Assembly (NCBI RefSeq): GCF_002813775.1
Contig: NZ_CP020370.1
Coordinates: 6,039,501-6,103,500, forward strand
Direction: 5' to 3'
DNA: 64,000 nt
Origin: Candidatus Thiodictyon syntrophicum
Lineage (GTDB): Bacteria; Pseudomonadota; Gammaproteobacteria; Chromatiales; Chromatiaceae
The position numbers and the translations under genes were made by a program. The number at the start of each line of letters is the position of its first letter. The stretch's first letter is position 1. Of the stretch, positions 5,481-56,097 are shown piece by piece. Under the pieces are notes generated by a model that made no database searches, was not told where the DNA came from, and was given only the letters and a program-made list of their open reading frames with translations.

Positions 5481-6491
5481 ATGCGTGCGAGACGTTCAAT
5501 TCACTGGGTCCTGGCGGTCGGCGCGGGGGTCGTGGTGGTCGCCGTCGCGCTGGCGCGGCTGGCCTGGCTGACGCCCCCGCCCCCCGAGCCGCTGGTGATT
5601 GCAATCGCCGACAGCCTCCTGGGCGTCCCCTTGCGGGTGGCCGAGCAGGAGGGGTTTTTCACCGCGCAAGGGTTGGCCGTGACCCTGCGGCTCTACCCGA
5701 CCGGCAAGCTCGCCCTGGACGCCCTGCTGCGGGGCCAGGCGGAGGTCGCCACGGTGGCCGAGACGCCGGTCGTGTTCGCCGCCCTGGCGGGCGAGCCGCT
5801 GCGCGTCATCGCCAATTATGCCTCCAGCGGTGAGACGAGCCTGGTGGCCCGGGCCGATCGGGGCATCGCGGAGCTGGCCGATCTGAAGGGCCGGCGGGTC
5901 GGCACCAGCCCGGGCACCACGGCCCACTATTTCCTGCACGTCCTGCTGACCGACCAGGGACTCACCGAGGCCGATGTCGCGGTCGTCCCCGTGCCCGCGC
6001 CGGAGCAGGCGGCGGCCCTGGCGGCGGGCCGTGTCGATGCCGTGTCGACCTTTGCGCCCTATTCAACCCAATGCCGGCTGGCCCTGGGGGAAAATGCGCG
6101 GACCTTCCCGGCGGGGCTGCGCTACAACGGCTTCGCGAGCCTGGTCGCGGTCCCGGACTTCAGCCACCGCCGGCCCGAGGTGGCCCTGCGGCTGCTGCGG
6201 GCGCTCGACCGGGCGATCCTGTGGATGCGTGGCCACGACCCCCAGGCCCGTGCGCTCACGGCGCGGACCCTGGGCCTGCCGGAGGCCGTCATCGCCGAGA
6301 CCTGGGGCCGGCTGCGCCCCAACCTGGCGCTGGATCAGGGGTACGTGATCCTGCTCCAGGCGCAGGCGCGCTGGGCCATCGCCACCGGGCTGGCGCCGGC
6401 CGCCGCCCTGCCCGACTTTCCCGCGTTGATCGACCCCAGCGCCCTGCGGCGCCTGCACCCCGAGTCGGTGACGGTGATCGGCACACCATGA
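5481..6491 (+). CDS. NMT1/SsuA-type periplasmic substrate-binding protein, probable sensor partner
   Basis: Type 2 periplasmic-binding fold of the NMT1/TauA/SsuA group. Visible family features are VIAIADSLLGVPLRVAEQEG near the mature N-terminus, RGQAEVATVAETPVV, and LKGRRVGTSPGTTAHYFL. Residues 8-30 form one hydrophobic segment that acts as signal peptide or membrane anchor. ATG 5481 has AGAGGTGGGG just upstream. No permease or ATPase gene follows; instead the stop overlaps the start of a histidine kinase (ATGA at 6488-6491). This tight coupling suggests the protein presents a ligand to the kinase rather than serving transport. The ligand cannot be read from sequence; sulfonate-, nitrate- or thiamine-precursor-like molecules are typical of the family. 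Confidence 0.8.
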   Translation: MRARRSIHWVLAVGAGVVVVAVALARLAWLTPPPPEPLVIAIADSLLGVPLRVAEQEGFFTAQGLAVTLRLYPTGKLALDALLRGQAEVATVAETPVVFAALAGEPLRVIANYASSGETSLVARADRGIAELADLKGRRVGTSPGTTAHYFLHVLLTDQGLTEADVAVVPVPAPEQAAALAAGRVDAVSTFAPYSTQCRLALGENARTFPAGLRYNGFASLVAVPDFSHRRPEVALRLLRALDRAILWMRGHDPQARALTARTLGLPEAVIAETWGRLRPNLALDQGYVILLQAQARWAIATGLAPAAALPDFPALIDPSALRRLHPESVTVIGTP

Positions 6492-8437
6492 ATCTGCGCC
6501 GTCGCTCCCGGCTCGTCGCGCTGGTGTCGGTCCTGATCTTCCTGGTCCCGCTCGGGCTCTTTCTGTTCGCCTACCGGGGCAAGCTGCAGACCCAGCGGGA
6601 CCTGGCCGTGGCCGAATCGCTGAGCGCTCAGACCACGCAACTGCGTACCGCGCTCTTCGGCTACCTGCTGCACCCGCAGGCCGAACTGCGCGGCCAGGTG
6701 GAGGCGCAGTTCGCGGTCCTGACCGGGCTGCTGGGTCGGCTGGGCCCGGCCATCGACGCCTCGATCCGAGACGATGCGCAGACCCGCTATGCCTGGGAGA
6801 CGGTGCGCCGACTGGTGGGCGACGCACAGACACTGTTCGCGCAGTTGGGCGACGCCGGCACCGACCAAGGGCGCACGGAACGCGACGCCCGCACCTCTGA
6901 CCTGATCCTGGTGGACAGCCACTCGCTGATCCTGTTCGTGAACCAGATCCGCTATCGCGCCAACGCGCGGTTTCTGCGCGCGACCACCTGGGAGAATCTG
7001 ACCCTGGGCGGACTCCTGACAGGCATCGCCGGTCTGGGGCTCGTGCTCTTTCTGGTGTTCGTGCGCGTCATCCTGAAACCCGTGCAGCAACTGCACGAGG
7101 CCGCCGTGCGGGTTGCCGGTGGCGACCTCGGGTTGCGCCTGGCAAGCCCGCGCCGGGATGAGTTCGGCGCCTTGGCCCGCGCCTTCGATGGGATGCTGGA
7201 CCGACTCCAGGAAACCATGGTGTCGCGCGCCCGCCTGGAGGCCGAGATCGCCGAGCGCGTGCGGACCGGGGCCGCCCTCACGGCCAGCGAGGCGGCGCTG
7301 CGCAACGCCCAACGCCTGGCCGGCCTGGGCAGCTGGAGCTGGGACCTCAAGAGCGGCGCGCAAACCTGGTCGGAGGAGATCTTTCACCTCTACGGCCGCG
7401 ACCCGCGCCTGGGACCCGCGGCTTACCCCCAGATCCGGCAGTATTTCACGCCCGCGAGTTGGGAGCGCCTGGCCGCCGCCGTGGAGCGGGCGCGCACCGA
7501 CGGCCTCCCCTATGAATGCGAGGCCGAACTGGTCCGCCCCGACGGCCGCCCCGGCTGGGTCGTGGCGCGTGGTGAGGCCACCCGCGACGCCGCCGGAACC
7601 ATTGTGAGGTTGAGCGGGACGGTGCAGGAGATCACCGCGTCCAAGCTGGCCGAAGGGCAGATTCAGGCCCTCAACGCCGGGCTCGAGCGGCGGGTCGAAC
7701 AGCGCACCGCGGAGTTGCAGGCCGCCAACCGGGAGTTGGAGTCCTTCGCCTATGCGGTCTCCCATGACCTGCGTGCCCCGCTGCGCGCACTCAGCGGCTT
7801 CAGCCAGGCCCTGGTCGAGGACTACGGTGGGCGTCTGGACGGGGAGGCGCGCTCCTTCCTCGACCAGATCCAGGGCGCCAGCCGCCGCATGGGGGAGTTG
7901 ATCGACGGTATCCTTACCCTGTCGCGCAGTACCCGCGGCGAACTGCGCCGGGACCCGGTGGATTTGAGCGCACTAGCCCAAGGGTTGCTGGCGCAGCACG
8001 CGCTGGCAGAGCCGGGGCGCCAGGTCGCCTGGGAGGTCGCCCCTGGGCTCGACGCCCTGGGGGACGCGCCCATGCTGGAGGTCGTCATGGTCAACCTGCT
8101 TGACAACGCCTGGAAATACACTGCCAAGACACCCGCCGCGACCATTCGGGTCTATGCTGAGGAGCGGGCAGGCGAGCTCTGGTATGGTGTCGCCGACAAC
8201 GGGGCCGGGTTCGACATGGCCTACCGCGCACGCCTGTTCCAGCCATTCCAACGGCTGCACCGCCAGGACGAGTTCCCCGGCATCGGCATCGGGCTCGCCA
8301 CCGTGCAGCGGATCATCCACCGTCACGGCGGTACCATCGAGGCCGAGGGGGTGCCAGGGGGTGGCGCGACCTTCCGTTTCACTGTGTCCGCGACCGGCCA
8401 TCGCCCGGAGTCCCTATGCAAAGCCACGCCATCCTGA
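6488..8437 (+). CDS. Membrane sensor histidine kinase (TM-HAMP-PAS-HisKA-HATPase)
   Basis: Two membrane segments (about residues 12-30 and 172-195) enclose a helical periplasmic domain of about 140 residues. A HAMP domain follows (LKPVQQLHEAAVRVAGGDLG), then a PAS/PAC domain (about 275-390), a coiled coil, and a HisKA domain with phospho-acceptor His426 in the motif SHDLRAPLRALSGF. The ATPase domain has the N box (NLLDNAWKYT), G1 (DNGAGF) and G2 (GIGIGLATV). ATG 6488 overlaps the stop of the binding-protein gene, and its own 3' end overlaps the response regulator by 22 bases. These overlaps define a signalling operon. The HisKA/ATPase type (APLRALSGFSQAL) is that of bacteriophytochrome-like kinases, which often pair with Rcp1-type regulators such as the next gene. 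Confidence 0.92.
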   Translation: MNLRRRSRLVALVSVLIFLVPLGLFLFAYRGKLQTQRDLAVAESLSAQTTQLRTALFGYLLHPQAELRGQVEAQFAVLTGLLGRLGPAIDASIRDDAQTRYAWETVRRLVGDAQTLFAQLGDAGTDQGRTERDARTSDLILVDSHSLILFVNQIRYRANARFLRATTWENLTLGGLLTGIAGLGLVLFLVFVRVILKPVQQLHEAAVRVAGGDLGLRLASPRRDEFGALARAFDGMLDRLQETMVSRARLEAEIAERVRTGAALTASEAALRNAQRLAGLGSWSWDLKSGAQTWSEEIFHLYGRDPRLGPAAYPQIRQYFTPASWERLAAAVERARTDGLPYECEAELVRPDGRPGWVVARGEATRDAAGTIVRLSGTVQEITASKLAEGQIQALNAGLERRVEQRTAELQAANRELESFAYAVSHDLRAPLRALSGFSQALVEDYGGRLDGEARSFLDQIQGASRRMGELIDGILTLSRSTRGELRRDPVDLSALAQGLLAQHALAEPGRQVAWEVAPGLDALGDAPMLEVVMVNLLDNAWKYTAKTPAATIRVYAEERAGELWYGVADNGAGFDMAYRARLFQPFQRLHRQDEFPGIGIGLATVQRIIHRHGGTIEAEGVPGGGATFRFTVSATGHRPESLCKATPS

Positions 8438-52055: not shown

Positions 52056-52529
52056 AGGCGACTCTGCACACGCCTGGATGCCGCGCTAATGCTCACTTCT
52101 ACAAGAACTTGGGCAATGCCTCGCCACGCAAGTCGGCCCGGATGCCGCGTTGGCGGCGTCACGCTTGTGTCAGGCACTGCGCGCTGGGGGATCCAGGGTC
52201 CACCGTGCGGGCCTCGACTTCACGCCGTGGCGCAAGCCGTGGCCTCCAGGGGCCGCATCCGGGAACACGCGCTAAACTGAGCAACTTGGCCGCAAACTCG
52301 GGCGCTCGCGAGCCGCCGCGGACCGAACAGGAATCAGGGGACCGACTTGGCAACGATCTTCATCTGCTACCGCCGCGACGACAGCGGCCCGGCCGCCGGG
52401 CGCATCTACGACCGGCTGGAGGCCCACTTCGGCCGCGGCCAAGTCTTCATGGACGTCGATGACATCCCGCTGGGGGTCGACTGGCTGGACTGGCTCGACC
52501 AACAGGTCCGCGGCTCCGACCTGGAGTCC

Positions 52530-52585
52530 AAGGCTTCAGCCTTGGCCCCCGCCGCCGAGGCTGAAGCCTTGGACTCCAGGGGCCA
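52530..52585. repeat. In-frame palindromic element in copy 1 linker
   Basis: TGGAGTCCAAGGCTTCAGCC faces GGCTGAAGCCTTGGACTCCA around a short GC-rich loop. It encodes LESKAS...AEALDSRG. A GGGTCCGCTGCGCGGACC hairpin follows at 52590-52608. The same pair of elements occurs in copy 2 (55390-55510) and outside genes at 56106-56165. Confidence 0.7.
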
Positions 52586-52618
52586 CGCAGGGTCCGCTGC
52601 GCGGACCACCGATCCCGT

Positions 52619-53503
52619 GTGTCAGCCGCCATGCCCGGGCCCAAGATCAAGCCCCCCGCCGCGCCCGATCCCAAGACCCAAGCCCTGCTCGCCGAACTCG
52701 CCGCCCCCGCCACCAAGCCCGAACGCCGCCTTGAGATCGGCGACCGGTTGGCCGAACTGGGAGACCCGCGCCCGGGCGTCGGACTGGGCGCCGACGGGCG
52801 GCCCGCAATCGATTGGGTCGCGATCCCGGCGGGGGATTTTCTCTACGGCGACAGGAAGGAACGCCGACCGACCGAGGCGTTCCGGATCAGCCGCTTTCCC
52901 ATCACCAACGCCCAATACCAGGCCTTCATCGCCGCCGGCGGCTATCGGGAAAAGCGCTGGTGGGAAGGGCTCGAGAAGCGGATCGAGTCGCCGGCCGATT
53001 CCAAGTGGAAGCAGCCCAACCGCCCGCGGGAAAGCGTCTCCTGGTACGAGGCGATGGCCTACTGCGCCTGGTTGAGTGACACCCTCAAGCTCGAGGTCCG
53101 CCTGCCTACCGAGTGGGAATGGGAACGGGTGGCGCGAGGCACCGACGGGCGCGAGTACCCCTGGGGCGACGGCTATCGGGCCGGGTATGCGAACATTGAT
53201 GAGAAGTACGCCAATGCCGGCCCGAGCTATCTCGAGCAGACCACCGCGGTCGGCCTGTACCCGCACGGCGCCTCGCCGGAAGGCGTGCTGGACCTGTCCG
53301 GGAACGTCTGGGAGTGGTGCCTCAACGAGTACAAGGACCCCAGCCGCATCCAGCCCGGCGGCACCGGGTCGCGGGTGGTGCGCGGCGGCTCTTGGGGCCT
53401 CTTCCAGCACGTCGCGCGCGCGGCCTACCGCTACGGCTACGGTCCGCACGACCGCTACGACTACGTTGGGCTGCGTGTCTTGTGCGTCTCCCCCATTCAC
53501 TGA
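52619..53503 (+). CDS. Formylglycine-generating-enzyme-like (SUMF1) protein with DGR-like C-terminus
   Basis: An intact 294-residue frame from GTG 52619. A Pro/Ala-rich linker and helical segment (LLAELAAPATKPERRLEIGD) precede the SUMF1/FGE-like C-type-lectin fold: VAIPAGDFLYGDRKERRPTE, FPITNAQYQAFIAAGGY, SWYEAMAYCAWLSDTLKLEV, RLPTEWEWERVARGTDGREY, DLSGNVWEWCLNEYKD and RVVRGGSWG. No catalytic Cys pair of true FGE is evident. The last 25 residues before VGLRVLCVSPIH look diversified (see the separate entry). Originally the C-terminal part of a TIR fusion; whether GTG 52619 is really used is unknown. Confidence 0.8.
   Translation: MSAAMPGPKIKPPAAPDPKTQALLAELAAPATKPERRLEIGDRLAELGDPRPGVGLGADGRPAIDWVAIPAGDFLYGDRKERRPTEAFRISRFPITNAQYQAFIAAGGYREKRWWEGLEKRIESPADSKWKQPNRPRESVSWYEAMAYCAWLSDTLKLEVRLPTEWEWERVARGTDGREYPWGDGYRAGYANIDEKYANAGPSYLEQTTAVGLYPHGASPEGVLDLSGNVWEWCLNEYKDPSRIQPGGTGSRVVRGGSWGLFQHVARAAYRYGYGPHDRYDYVGLRVLCVSPIH
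53396..53464 (+). other. Candidate diversity-generating-retroelement variable region
   Basis: Between the conserved GGSW and VGLRV, 15 codons sit where related proteins usually have Asn-rich stretches. They read G L F, H V, Y, Y G Y G, H D, Y D Y, and 14 of the 15 end in C. This is the pattern produced when AAC codons of a template are changed at their two adenines. Constant codons between them (CAG, GCG CGC GCG GCC, CGC, CCG, CGC) lack such variation. No template repeat or reverse transcriptase was found in the window. Confidence 0.5.
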
Positions 53504-53714
53504 CCACTGGATCACTGAACACTGATCACTGATCCTCTGTTCACTGAACCGCGCGCAGCGCGTACCCCGTAGCCTGGATGGAGCGCAGCGCAATCCAGGT
53601 CCCGCTCGCCGCCCGCCGGACCATCGTGTGTCTGCGAGGACGCACCCGGATTTCGCTGCGCTCCATCCGGGCTACCGACTGCCAGCCGCGGGGAATCCGG
53701 ATGCGGCACCGGCT
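53504..53714. repeat. ACTGATCACTGA repeats and a REP pair
   Basis: After copy 1 the DNA holds five or six reiterated CACTGAxCACTG units (53498-53548). A REP pair follows: TAGCCTGGATGGAGCGCAGC (53572) facing GCTGCGCTCCATCCGGGCTA (53655). No gene. Confidence 0.65.
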
Positions 53715-54257
53715 TCATGGATCATCCGGCTCTCCGAATGCCTGGTCTTTGAATTCGCCCGGATCCGCAGCCCACTCCTCGTTCGCCCAGCCCAAACGGA
53801 CATAGCGATGAAACGATGAATAGGGCCAATCCGCAACCCGGGTCACCCAACCGTGCTTGACCGGGTTGTAATGAACGTAATTGACATGCGTCTCCAGGTC
53901 CGCCTCATCGCGGATGGTGTGCTCCCAAAACCGACGGCGCCAAAAGCGATATTCACCGCGCCGGTCCTTCTGGAGCGGGACGCCGGACTTGACCAGCGCC
54001 CTTGAGAATCCGCCTTTGATCGCCTTCCATCGCCCCGAATAGTCCGCATCGTTCTCGGGCAGCGTCAGCACGATGTGCAGATGCTCCGGCAACACCACCG
54101 CAGCCAGGATATCGAACGGGTGCGCCGCACGGACCTCGCGAAAGGACGTGCGCAGAAGGTCGATGTGTTCGGTCAGCCGCCGCGAACGGCGATCACGCAG
54201 CGTCACGGTAAAAAAGTAGGTACCACCCGGGACCAGGTTCCGCCGGAATCGAACCAT
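53715..54257 (-). CDS. REP-associated tyrosine transposase (RayT/TnpA_REP)
   Basis: Y1 HUH-type single-strand transposase, 180 residues. The HUH site is VVLPEHLHIVLTLP (HLH), the catalytic Tyr region is HVNYVHYNPVKHGWVTRVAD, and FWRRRFWEHTIRDEADL is typical. It begins FRRNLVPGGTYFFTVTLRDR. The gene is flanked on both sides by REP sequences of the GGATGGAGCGCAGCG type, its presumed substrates. Intact, so it could still mobilise them. Confidence 0.9.
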   Translation of the reverse strand: MVRFRRNLVPGGTYFFTVTLRDRRSRRLTEHIDLLRTSFREVRAAHPFDILAAVVLPEHLHIVLTLPENDADYSGRWKAIKGGFSRALVKSGVPLQKDRRGEYRFWRRRFWEHTIRDEADLETHVNYVHYNPVKHGWVTRVADWPYSSFHRYVRLGWANEEWAADPGEFKDQAFGEPDDP

Positions 54258-54285
54258 GTGTCATCCCCCTCCAGTCGATCGCCGC

Positions 54286-54735
54286 GCTGCCGGCGCGGCC
54301 CCACGATACGGTGGCCAGCGTAGCCCGGATGGAGCGCAGCGAAATCCGGGGTGGCCTCGCAGACATACGATAACCCAGTCGGCAGCGGGCGGGGACCTGG
54401 ATTCCGCTGCGCTCCATCCAGGCTACGGCCTGCGCGCTGCCGGCGCGGCCCTACGATGCGGTGGCCAGCGTAGCCCGGATGGAGCGCAGCGAAATCCGGG
54501 GCGGCCTCGCAGACATACGATAACCCAGCAGGCAGCGGGCCGGGACCTGGATTCCGCTGCGCTCCATCCAGGCTACGGCCTGCGCGCTGCCGGCGCGGCC
54601 CTACGATGCGGTGGCCAGCGTAGCCCGGATGGAGCGCAGCGAAATCCGGGGCGGCCTAGCAGGCATACGATAACCCAGCCGGCAGCGGGCGGGGACCTGG
54701 ATTCCGCTGCGCTCCATCCAGGCTACGGCCTGTGG
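54286..54735. repeat. Tandem REP/BIME array, three 150-bp units
   Basis: Three nearly identical units start with CCAGCGTAGCCCGGATGGAG at 54315, 54465 and 54615. Each unit holds a REP, a spacer and an inverted REP (TGCGCTCCATCCAGGCTACG). The third unit ends inside the TIR-SUMF1 copy 2 frame and replaces its 3' part. Long plus-strand frames here are only translated repeats. Confidence 0.88.
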
Positions 54736-56004
54736 ATAGGTGCCGACGGCGGTGGTCTGCTGGAGATAGCTCGGGCCAGCCTCTTGGTTGGTCTCGTTGA
54801 TATTCGCATACCCGGCCCGATAGCCGTCGCCCCAGGGGTACTCGCGCCCATCGGTCCCGCGCGCCGCCCGCTCCCATTCCCATTCAGTCGGCAGGCGCAC
54901 ATCGAGCTGGAGGGTGTCGCTCAACCAGGCGCAGTAGGCCATCGCCTCGCACCAGTAGACGCGTTCCCGCGGGCGGTTGGGCTGCTCCCAGTTGGGTTCG
55001 ATCGGCGACTCGATCCGCCGCTCCAACCCTTCCCACCAGCGATTCTCGGTATAGCCGCCAGCGGCGATGAAGGCCTGGTATTGGACGTTGGTGATGGGGA
55101 CGCGGCCGATCCGGAAGGCGTCGTTGTCGCGGCGCTCCTTTTTCGCGCCGTAGAGGAAGGAGCCCGCCGGGATCTCGACCCAACCGATCGCGGGCCGTCC
55201 GTCGGAGTCCAGTCCGACGCCGGGGCGAGGGTCCCCCAACTCGGCCAGTTGGTCGCCGATCTCAAGACGACGCTCGGTCTTGGTGGCAGGGTCGGCAAGT
55301 TCGGCGAGCAGGGGTTCGGTCTTGGGAGCGGGCGCGGGGGGCTTGATCGTGCGGCCGGGCAGCGCGGCTGACGCGGGGTCGCTGGTCCGCACAGCGGACC
55401 CTACGGGGCCCCTGGAGTCCAAGGCTTCAGCCTTGGCGGTGGGGGCCGAGGTTGACGCCTTGGACTCCAGGTCATTGCTGGGCGCCGCGCCGGTCCGCGC
55501 AGCGGACCCAACGGCGGGCGGTGCCGCTGGGTGCGGGTGCTCGGCCAGACGCTCGATACCGCGGATCAGGCGGTCCATGTGGCCGCGAAAATGCGCCCCG
55601 GCGGCGTGCACCGTGGTGCCCTGGCGATCGGCGAGCGCCTTGATGCTGTCGGGCAGGTCCCGCTCCAGGGGCATCGCTACGCCCTCCAGGAGGACCGGGA
55701 CCAGGGGGATGCCGCGCGCGAGTGCGATCTCGATCTCGGTGCGGACATAGTCGCGCGGGGCGTCCAGGCGGCGGCCCGAGCCCGCGTCGGCGGCCCGCAG
55801 CCAGTCCCGGCCGATCACGGCCAGCACCACGTCTGAGCCGCGGACCTATTGGTCGAGCCAGTCCCGCCAATTGACCCCCAGCGGGATGTCGTCCACGTCG
55901 ATGAAGACCCGGCCGCGGCCGAAGTGGGCCTCGAGCCGGTCGTAGATGCGCCCGGCGGCCGGCCCGCTGTCGTCGCGGCGGTAGCAGATGAAGATCGTTG
56001 CCAA
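54730..56004 (-). pseudogene. TIR-SUMF1 fusion gene, copy 2 (amber codon, 3' truncation)
   Basis: TTG 56004 begins MATIFICYRRDDSGPAAGRI. After NWRDWLDQ a TAG (55846-55848) stands where copy 1 has CAG. Beyond it the frame continues through a full TIR domain (VRGSDVVLAVIGRDWLRAAD; YVRTEIEIALARGIPLVPVL), a linker with the palindromic element (LESKASTSAPTAKAEALDSR), and the SUMF1 domain up to TTAVGTYPQ. There a REP array takes over, so the GGSW end and any variable region are lost. Complementary to copy 1: each retains what the other lacks. Readthrough or restart products cannot be excluded. Confidence 0.78.
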
Positions 56005-56097
56005 GTCTGTCCCCCGAATCCCGTTGCGACCCTGGTGCCCCGCGAATCGCCACCGGCTTGCGTGCAACTGCGCAGGTCTATTCTGTGTTCCCGGACC

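Follow-up and report, generated by a model that had tools for sequence, protein, structure and literature searches.

Organization of the locus

Two gene copies that join a TIR domain to an FGE (SUMF1-like) domain lie tail to tail in the genome of Candidatus Thiodictyon syntrophicum Cad16T, and both copies are broken (Table 1). The strain is described as a Lake Cadagno purple sulfur bacterium growing both as single cells and in aggregates, and the main text of that description mentions neither "retroelement" nor "reverse transcriptase" (PMC5944118). The genome comprises 7,738,984 bases in three contigs (6,837,296, 484,824 and 416,864). The window, by which we mean the whole stretch of 64,000 nucleotides that was analyzed, corresponds to C1:6039501–6103500, and positions given below without a contig name are counted from its first letter. 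The closed genome (G000) was compared with seven Thiodictyon drafts, making eight genomes of the genus; the drafts include an uncultured Thiodictyon from a Loclat bin (G006) and Ca. Thiodictyon intracellulare (G003).

The two copies form an inverted repeat of 616 nt (arms 52655–53270 and 54726–55341, 84%), and the second FGE copy is 79% identical to the first across residues 2–218 of the latter. The profile match of the second copy stops early (Table 1), and therefore its variable region (VR) has been lost. In the first copy, the VR lies at the C-terminus of the CLec/FGE fold. The initial annotation, made from the sequence alone, had reported a segment running from GGSW to VGLRV in a SUMF1-like domain at this place. 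The segment is present (53384–53479), with GGSW encoded at 53384–53395 and VGLRV at 53465–53479. The annotation had also taken the domain to have been fused originally to TIR. The start of a TIR_2 domain is indeed encoded upstream, but the match covers only profile positions 1–52 of 122, its reading frame differs from that of the FGE ORF, and it ends at a short inverted repeat.

Table 1. Features of the TIR-FGE locus, in window positions.
Feature	Position	Strand	Basis or remark
Truncated TIR domain, N-terminal part	52347–52520	+	Pfam TIR_2, residues 4–58, profile 1–52/122, E 3.5e-7
Short inverted repeat, 27-nt arms, MITE-like	52520–52580	.	At the TIR/FGE break; second copy at 55411–55471; repeat search
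FGE/SUMF1 ORF, 294 aa, bears the VR	52619–53503	+	PF03781, E 4.9e-47, residues 65–287
Homogenized block, VR core with the flank on either side	53363–53555	+	Non-variable sites near-identical to an otherwise diverged gene
VR core, 24 codons (ORF codons 260–283)	53396–53467	+	Comparison with relatives
Gene end and 3' noncoding flank, candidate homing (IMH-like) element	53486–53560	+	Sequence matches in the genome
IS200-like (Y1_Tnp) transposase ORF	53715–54257	-	PF01797, E 3.3e-7; place held by RT and TR in intact relatives
Three 150-nt tandem copies, MITE/REP-like unit, 96% identical	54283–54732	.	Repeat search
Second, convergent FGE copy	54601–55830	-	FGE match ends at profile position 173/255
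TIR fragment of the second copy	55849–56067	-	TIR_2 profile 1–46/122, E 9.2e-7

The initial annotation had stated that no reverse transcriptase (RT) lies in the 64 kb, and this was borne out: all 11 RVT_1 matches of the genome fall outside the window, and tblastn with the RT of G005 (E ≤ 1) found none inside it. No accessory protein (Avd/HRDC) was found among five ORFs scanned within 52347–56067. A remnant of an RT or a template repeat (TR) between the two FGE genes was considered and rejected, since the good piece in blastn and tblastx is 42 nt of shared 3' flank; the remaining pieces have E values of 0.01 or worse. The 75 bp at 53486–53560, which run beyond the stop codon, match four genomic sites at E ≤ 0.01 (all 8 candidates scored; weakest E 0.006). 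All four are VR loci without a template, from families 1 and 2 of those described below. REP-like units (53568–53609, 53644–53692 and 54283–54732) flank the IS200-like transposase ORF on both sides, an arrangement that we take to resemble that of REP-associated tyrosine transposases.

Variation in the VR

The end of the window gene is 85% identical over 141 bp to that of an FGE gene at C1:399450 in the same genome; the proteins are 53% identical over their aligned part. Within the VR, the window gene differs from C1:399450 at 12 nonsynonymous and 0 synonymous codons (8, 8 and 1 differences at codon positions 1, 2 and 3), from G006:C449 likewise at 12 and 0 (8, 9 and 0) and from G003:C22 at 10 and 0 (5, 9 and 0), the last comparison being restricted to 19 of 24 codons because that VR is interrupted. 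Upstream, the corresponding counts are 60/59/78, 80/83/113 and 60/42/72, and the VR departs from them with Fisher p values of 0.003, 0.0002 and 0.0008, respectively. The more distant VR of G005:C178 gives a weaker pattern than these three main comparisons (12/10/4, with 1 synonymous and 16 nonsynonymous codons). At one codon, the 399-kb relative has GAG where GTC, CTC or TTC stand elsewhere, a difference left unexplained by a single shared TR.

Against two of the three relatives, the homogenized block has a sharp 5' edge. In bins of 20 nt, identity to C1:399450 rises from 5/20 just 5' of 53363 to 20/20 from that position on, and on the 3' side it falls from 18/20 (53523–53542) to 14/20 (53543–53562) and then to 1/20. 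The same 5' edge is seen with G006:C449 (6/20 to 19/20), where similarity ends shortly past the stop codon. G003:C22 has no such edge because its upstream part is also similar, so that the 5' edge is visible in two of three comparisons.

How often such a pattern arises among FGE-type C-termini was gauged with 28 distinct sequences (two of them TRs) from 30 kept loci, which give 378 pairs. The median share of differences at third positions is 0.27, and 18 of the 378 pairs show the VR pattern, defined as at least 12 differences with a third-position share of at most 1/15. Five of these pairs come from two complete diversity-generating retroelements (DGRs; L053/L057 and L061/L064). The others are the window pair, the pair at C1:3264/3268 kb, ten that fall within a six-gene orphan family, and L060/L070. 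A scan of viral contigs for the VR pattern gave 0 matches.

The codon signature that had first drawn attention to the segment holds up as well. Among 16 variable-type codons, which were picked after the alignments had been seen, all but CAG and GTT, hence 14, have C as their last base, and in the whole block of 24 codons 18 do so. When the residues are taken as fixed and codon usage is drawn from seven ordinary window genes, in which C occupies 53% of third positions, the probability of at least 14 C-ending codons is 0.004. Because the codons were selected post hoc, the count was rejected as stand-alone proof. The codon clue is above chance yet weak alone; it is suggestive, and the comparison with relatives makes it strong.

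The related VRs of Ca. Thiodictyon intracellulare are broken: that of G003:C22 (L084, 646–978) is interrupted, and that of G003:C77 (L078) contains a stop codon and a frameshift.

Templates and reverse transcriptases

Four of the 11 RVT_1 matches carry the motif IG(N/A)L(T/N)SQ (C1:2227977, C1:2972003, C1:3497975 and C1:5509161). Each of these four DGR RTs is accompanied by a TR that differs from its VRs at template adenines only (adenine/non-adenine counts by cassette of 13/0 and 21/0; 13/0 and 14/0; 12/0; and 5/0 and 9/0 in two pieces), and six VRs are paired with the four complete cassettes. HRDC ORFs adjoin the RTs of L008 and L009. The fragment match on C2 (L010) resembles a group II intron RT. 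The RT at C1:5509161 (L122, 8499–10400, minus strand) shares one open frame with MutS domain I, which in MutS recognizes mismatches (PF01624, E 6.8e-7), and in this cassette the RT ORF as mechanically listed begins within the TR, so that its 5' end and the TR overlap.

The genome's four TRs were tried as templates for the window VR and rejected; none fits. Eight TRs that were compared with the window VR show 27–45 non-A mismatches each to it, and two more TRs of the own genome show >25. BLAST with the VR itself (E ≤ 10, best 40 of 118 candidates) found no TR for it in the closed genome, and a search with an inferred TR found no fitting one in the closed genome (best 40 of 72 candidates) or in the seven drafts of the genus. 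Besides VRs, the latter search recovered an unrelated TR with 75% identity at C1:3498843 and, in the drafts, TRs that belong to other families. Across 55 genomes, matches were confined to the eight genomes of the genus. The genome-wide check proposed by the initial annotation thus turned up DGR RTs but no adenine-specific template repeat for the window VR. Since the annotation had set the joint absence of template and DGR RT against its own reading, one half of that absence is observed and the other half is not.

Because the TR of the window's family was found in no genome, the adenine specificity of its variation was judged with the help of a homologous TR that belongs to a different family. 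This TR lies in G006:C353, a short contig without an RT. Of 26 variable sites in the window's VR family, 18 coincide with adenines of the G006 TR, whereas 8.3 would be expected (p = 9e-7); restricted to codon positions 1 and 2, the coincidence has p = 2.6e-4. The count covers four VRs and leaves out G003:C77, G006:C819 (frame-shifted) and G005:C178 (diverged). The coincidence with the TR of G005 is weaker (15/26, p = 7e-4; p = 0.02 at codon positions 1 and 2). The G006 TR itself misfits the window VR at 27/96 non-A sites.

Two sister genomes preserve the arrangement that the window locus lacks. In G005:C152, an RT and a TR lie between two convergent EAD8-nSTAND1-FGE targets, with a SEFIR/TIR-EAD8 gene alongside. 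G007:C480 has the same order, namely a VR (+), an RT-family ORF (-), a TR (-) and a VR (-), and its TR shows 16 and 18 adenine mismatches to its own two VRs, with 1 and 0 others. The RT-family ORF of G007:C480 (L264, minus strand, about 6347–7093) has LGGYLSH instead of IGxxxSQ; its frame is open and YMDD is kept. The EAD8-nSTAND1-FGE domain set recurs in G006:C353 and in G006:C449, which bears a VR of the window's family.

Origin and fate of the locus

The sequence comparisons support the view that 53396–53467 is a DGR-type VR with adenine-site-like variation. A DGR origin is supported by nonsynonymous-only change, by its concentration at codon positions 1 and 2, by homing-like edges of the block, which two of the three comparisons show, and by the coincidence with adenines of a TR in a sister species, so that the initial reading of the gene as a DGR target is upheld. 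We regard the locus as very probably a decayed DGR locus, in which a former TIR-FGE target has kept an orphan VR and the RT/TR core has been lost. At the time of homing, adenine-mutagenized cDNA from a TR would have been written into about 53363–53555, scrambling AAC-type codons and homogenizing the remainder. The convergent target pair probably enclosed the RT and TR, as in the two sister genomes, and both would have been lost with the invasion by an IS200-like transposase and MITE-like repeats. The second target has lost its VR, and the TIR match of each copy covers only the first 46–52 of 122 positions. Because the core is absent, mobile repeats lie between the genes and the copies are broken, the VR is most likely frozen.

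The initial annotation had allowed that the cassette might act in trans or be lost, and loss is favored because no fitting TR was found. Diversification that still proceeds in trans, through one of the four RTs with a TR that escaped the search, occurs only in other strains or sat on an element since lost, seems improbable to us, even though the VR ORF is open, its flanks are well preserved, the genome holds four DGR RTs and diversification in trans has been reported for Thiohalocapsa PB-PSB1 (PMC10907252). It is opposed by the failure to find a fitting TR in the closed genome (best 40 of 118 and 40 of 72 candidates) and by the non-A mismatches of the TRs at hand. The missing TR argues against present-day diversification from a TR in this genome, not against a DGR origin.

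Two further explanations would dispense with a retroelement altogether. Ordinary diversifying selection on the binding face, combined with gene conversion of paralog ends, would account for the common flanks of the paralog gene ends, and the FGE fold should accommodate changes at its surface. Conversion, however, should homogenize the variable core too, and such selection fits poorly with the lack of any synonymous change in three VR comparisons, with changes at adenines of a homologous TR and with the same pattern in VRs of the own genome whose TR is known; we hold this explanation to be very unlikely. That the region is a normal FGE C-terminus, whose C-ending codons come from nothing more than a GC-rich codon usage, has the smallest probability, close to nil. 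The share of C at third positions in the seven window genes speaks for it, whereas the excess given the residues (P = 0.004) and the comparative pattern disfavor it. The decayed DGR locus therefore remains the explanation that we adopt.

The TIR-FGE protein may have served as a sensor-effector. A sensor role is suggested by its TIR domain, by the nSTAND1/EAD8 contexts of related VRs and by what has been proposed for similar targets (PMC10907252). Since the TIR match is so short, the window gene may have lost the capacity to signal, even should its FGE domain be expressed.

Comparison with known systems

A search of PDB sequences with the window FGE ORF gave 31 matches, the best being 7spq (E 1.6e-20). 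One of the 31 is the Treponema denticola variable protein 2y3c, which is similar over query residues 156–289 (E 1.3e-8); those ranking above 2y3c comprise FGE-like enzymes and a kinase but no DGR protein. The Treponema denticola protein is part of a DGR that has a cassette of its own, whereas no cassette was found for the window VR.

The closest parallel is Thiohalocapsa PB-PSB1, for which nine DGR loci, MITE-like arrays replacing RT or TR, activity in trans and EAD8-nSTAND1-FGE targets are described (PMC10907252, Dore et al. 2024); the sensor role of such targets is a proposal that those authors themselves describe as untested. As in PB-PSB1, the host is a purple sulfur bacterium with several DGRs, MITE-like repeats stand in place of DGR parts, and CLec/FGE targets carry TIR or nSTAND1/EAD8 parts (PMC10907252). 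The window locus differs in that it has neither RT nor TR, no TR was found genome-wide, the TIR-FGE gene is broken and the genus is another. The domain set of the DGR 6 type, EAD8-nSTAND1-FGE (PMC10907252), is shared by G005:C152, G006:C353 and G006:C449, while the window gene has TIR in place of EAD8-nSTAND1. Since degenerate DGR loci are already described in that study, the window locus is classed as a degenerate DGR target. "Thiodictyon" is absent from the main text of that study, and a literature search found no paper that pairs "diversity-generating retroelement" with "Thiodictyon."

The locus indicates that, even where RT and TR have disappeared, the VR can suffice to recognize a DGR target, through the lack of change at third positions, the edges of the block and a template in a sister species. 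Such loci are missed by surveys that search beside the RT, and a large survey concedes that remote targets are missed (PMC8144416). It also makes testable the question of whether VRs are kept as fixed sensors once the diversifier is lost.

Other VRs for which no template was found

What may go beyond the known systems is that the searches of the closed genome gave no TR for ten VRs, which form three families of 2, 2 and 6 members, as against the six VRs paired with complete cassettes; this tally rests on the best 40 of 118, 72 and 125 candidates scored and on 29 of 29 for the G006 TR. Sister species still hold a TR for two of these families.

Family 2 consists of the convergent FGE genes at C1:3264763 and C1:3268403 (L076, 7764–7904 and 11289–11456), one of which adjoins an nSTAND1 ORF. 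The G006 TR fits their VRs, which mismatch it at 10/24 and 17/24 adenines and at 2/81 non-A sites each; a search of Cad16T for this TR, with all 29 candidates scored, did not find it. The window VR differs from the two family-2 VRs by 13/10/5 and 12/13/6 at codon positions 1, 2 and 3, as expected under another TR. Between the two genes, where RT and TR would sit, lies a 436-aa ORF that we take to be a transposase.

Family 3 comprises six VRs (C1:1162762, C1:2158973, C1:3727781, C1:3729035, C3:403262 and C3:407944; L049–L052 and L054), five of which lie in open frames of 851–1526 aa. The third-position pattern is seen in five of the six; C3:403262 fits least (e.g., 13/10/7 against L051). No TR for this family was found in the genome (best 40 of 125 candidates), but the TR of G007:C480 fits the six VRs, from which it differs at 16–24 of 26 adenines and at 6–13 of 97 other sites.

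It is conceivable, though we hold the idea only tentatively and think it rather less probable than its opposite, that template-less VRs are the rule here and that DGRs are transient generators leaving behind a set of fixed sensors kept without the machinery. If this were true, an innate repertoire would have been written by hypermutation and then retained without the diversifier.

Two more candidate VR families were noticed, one made up of L060, L069 and L070 (C1:4085937, C1:1503751 and C1:4113829) and the other of L063 (C1:1040–1043 kb, in tandem). No TR for either was found within the local stretches examined, and third-position differences number 1–3 of 16–23 per pair. A further convergent FGE pair, at C1:5444721 (+) and C1:5445686 (-), has about 70% identity to family 3.
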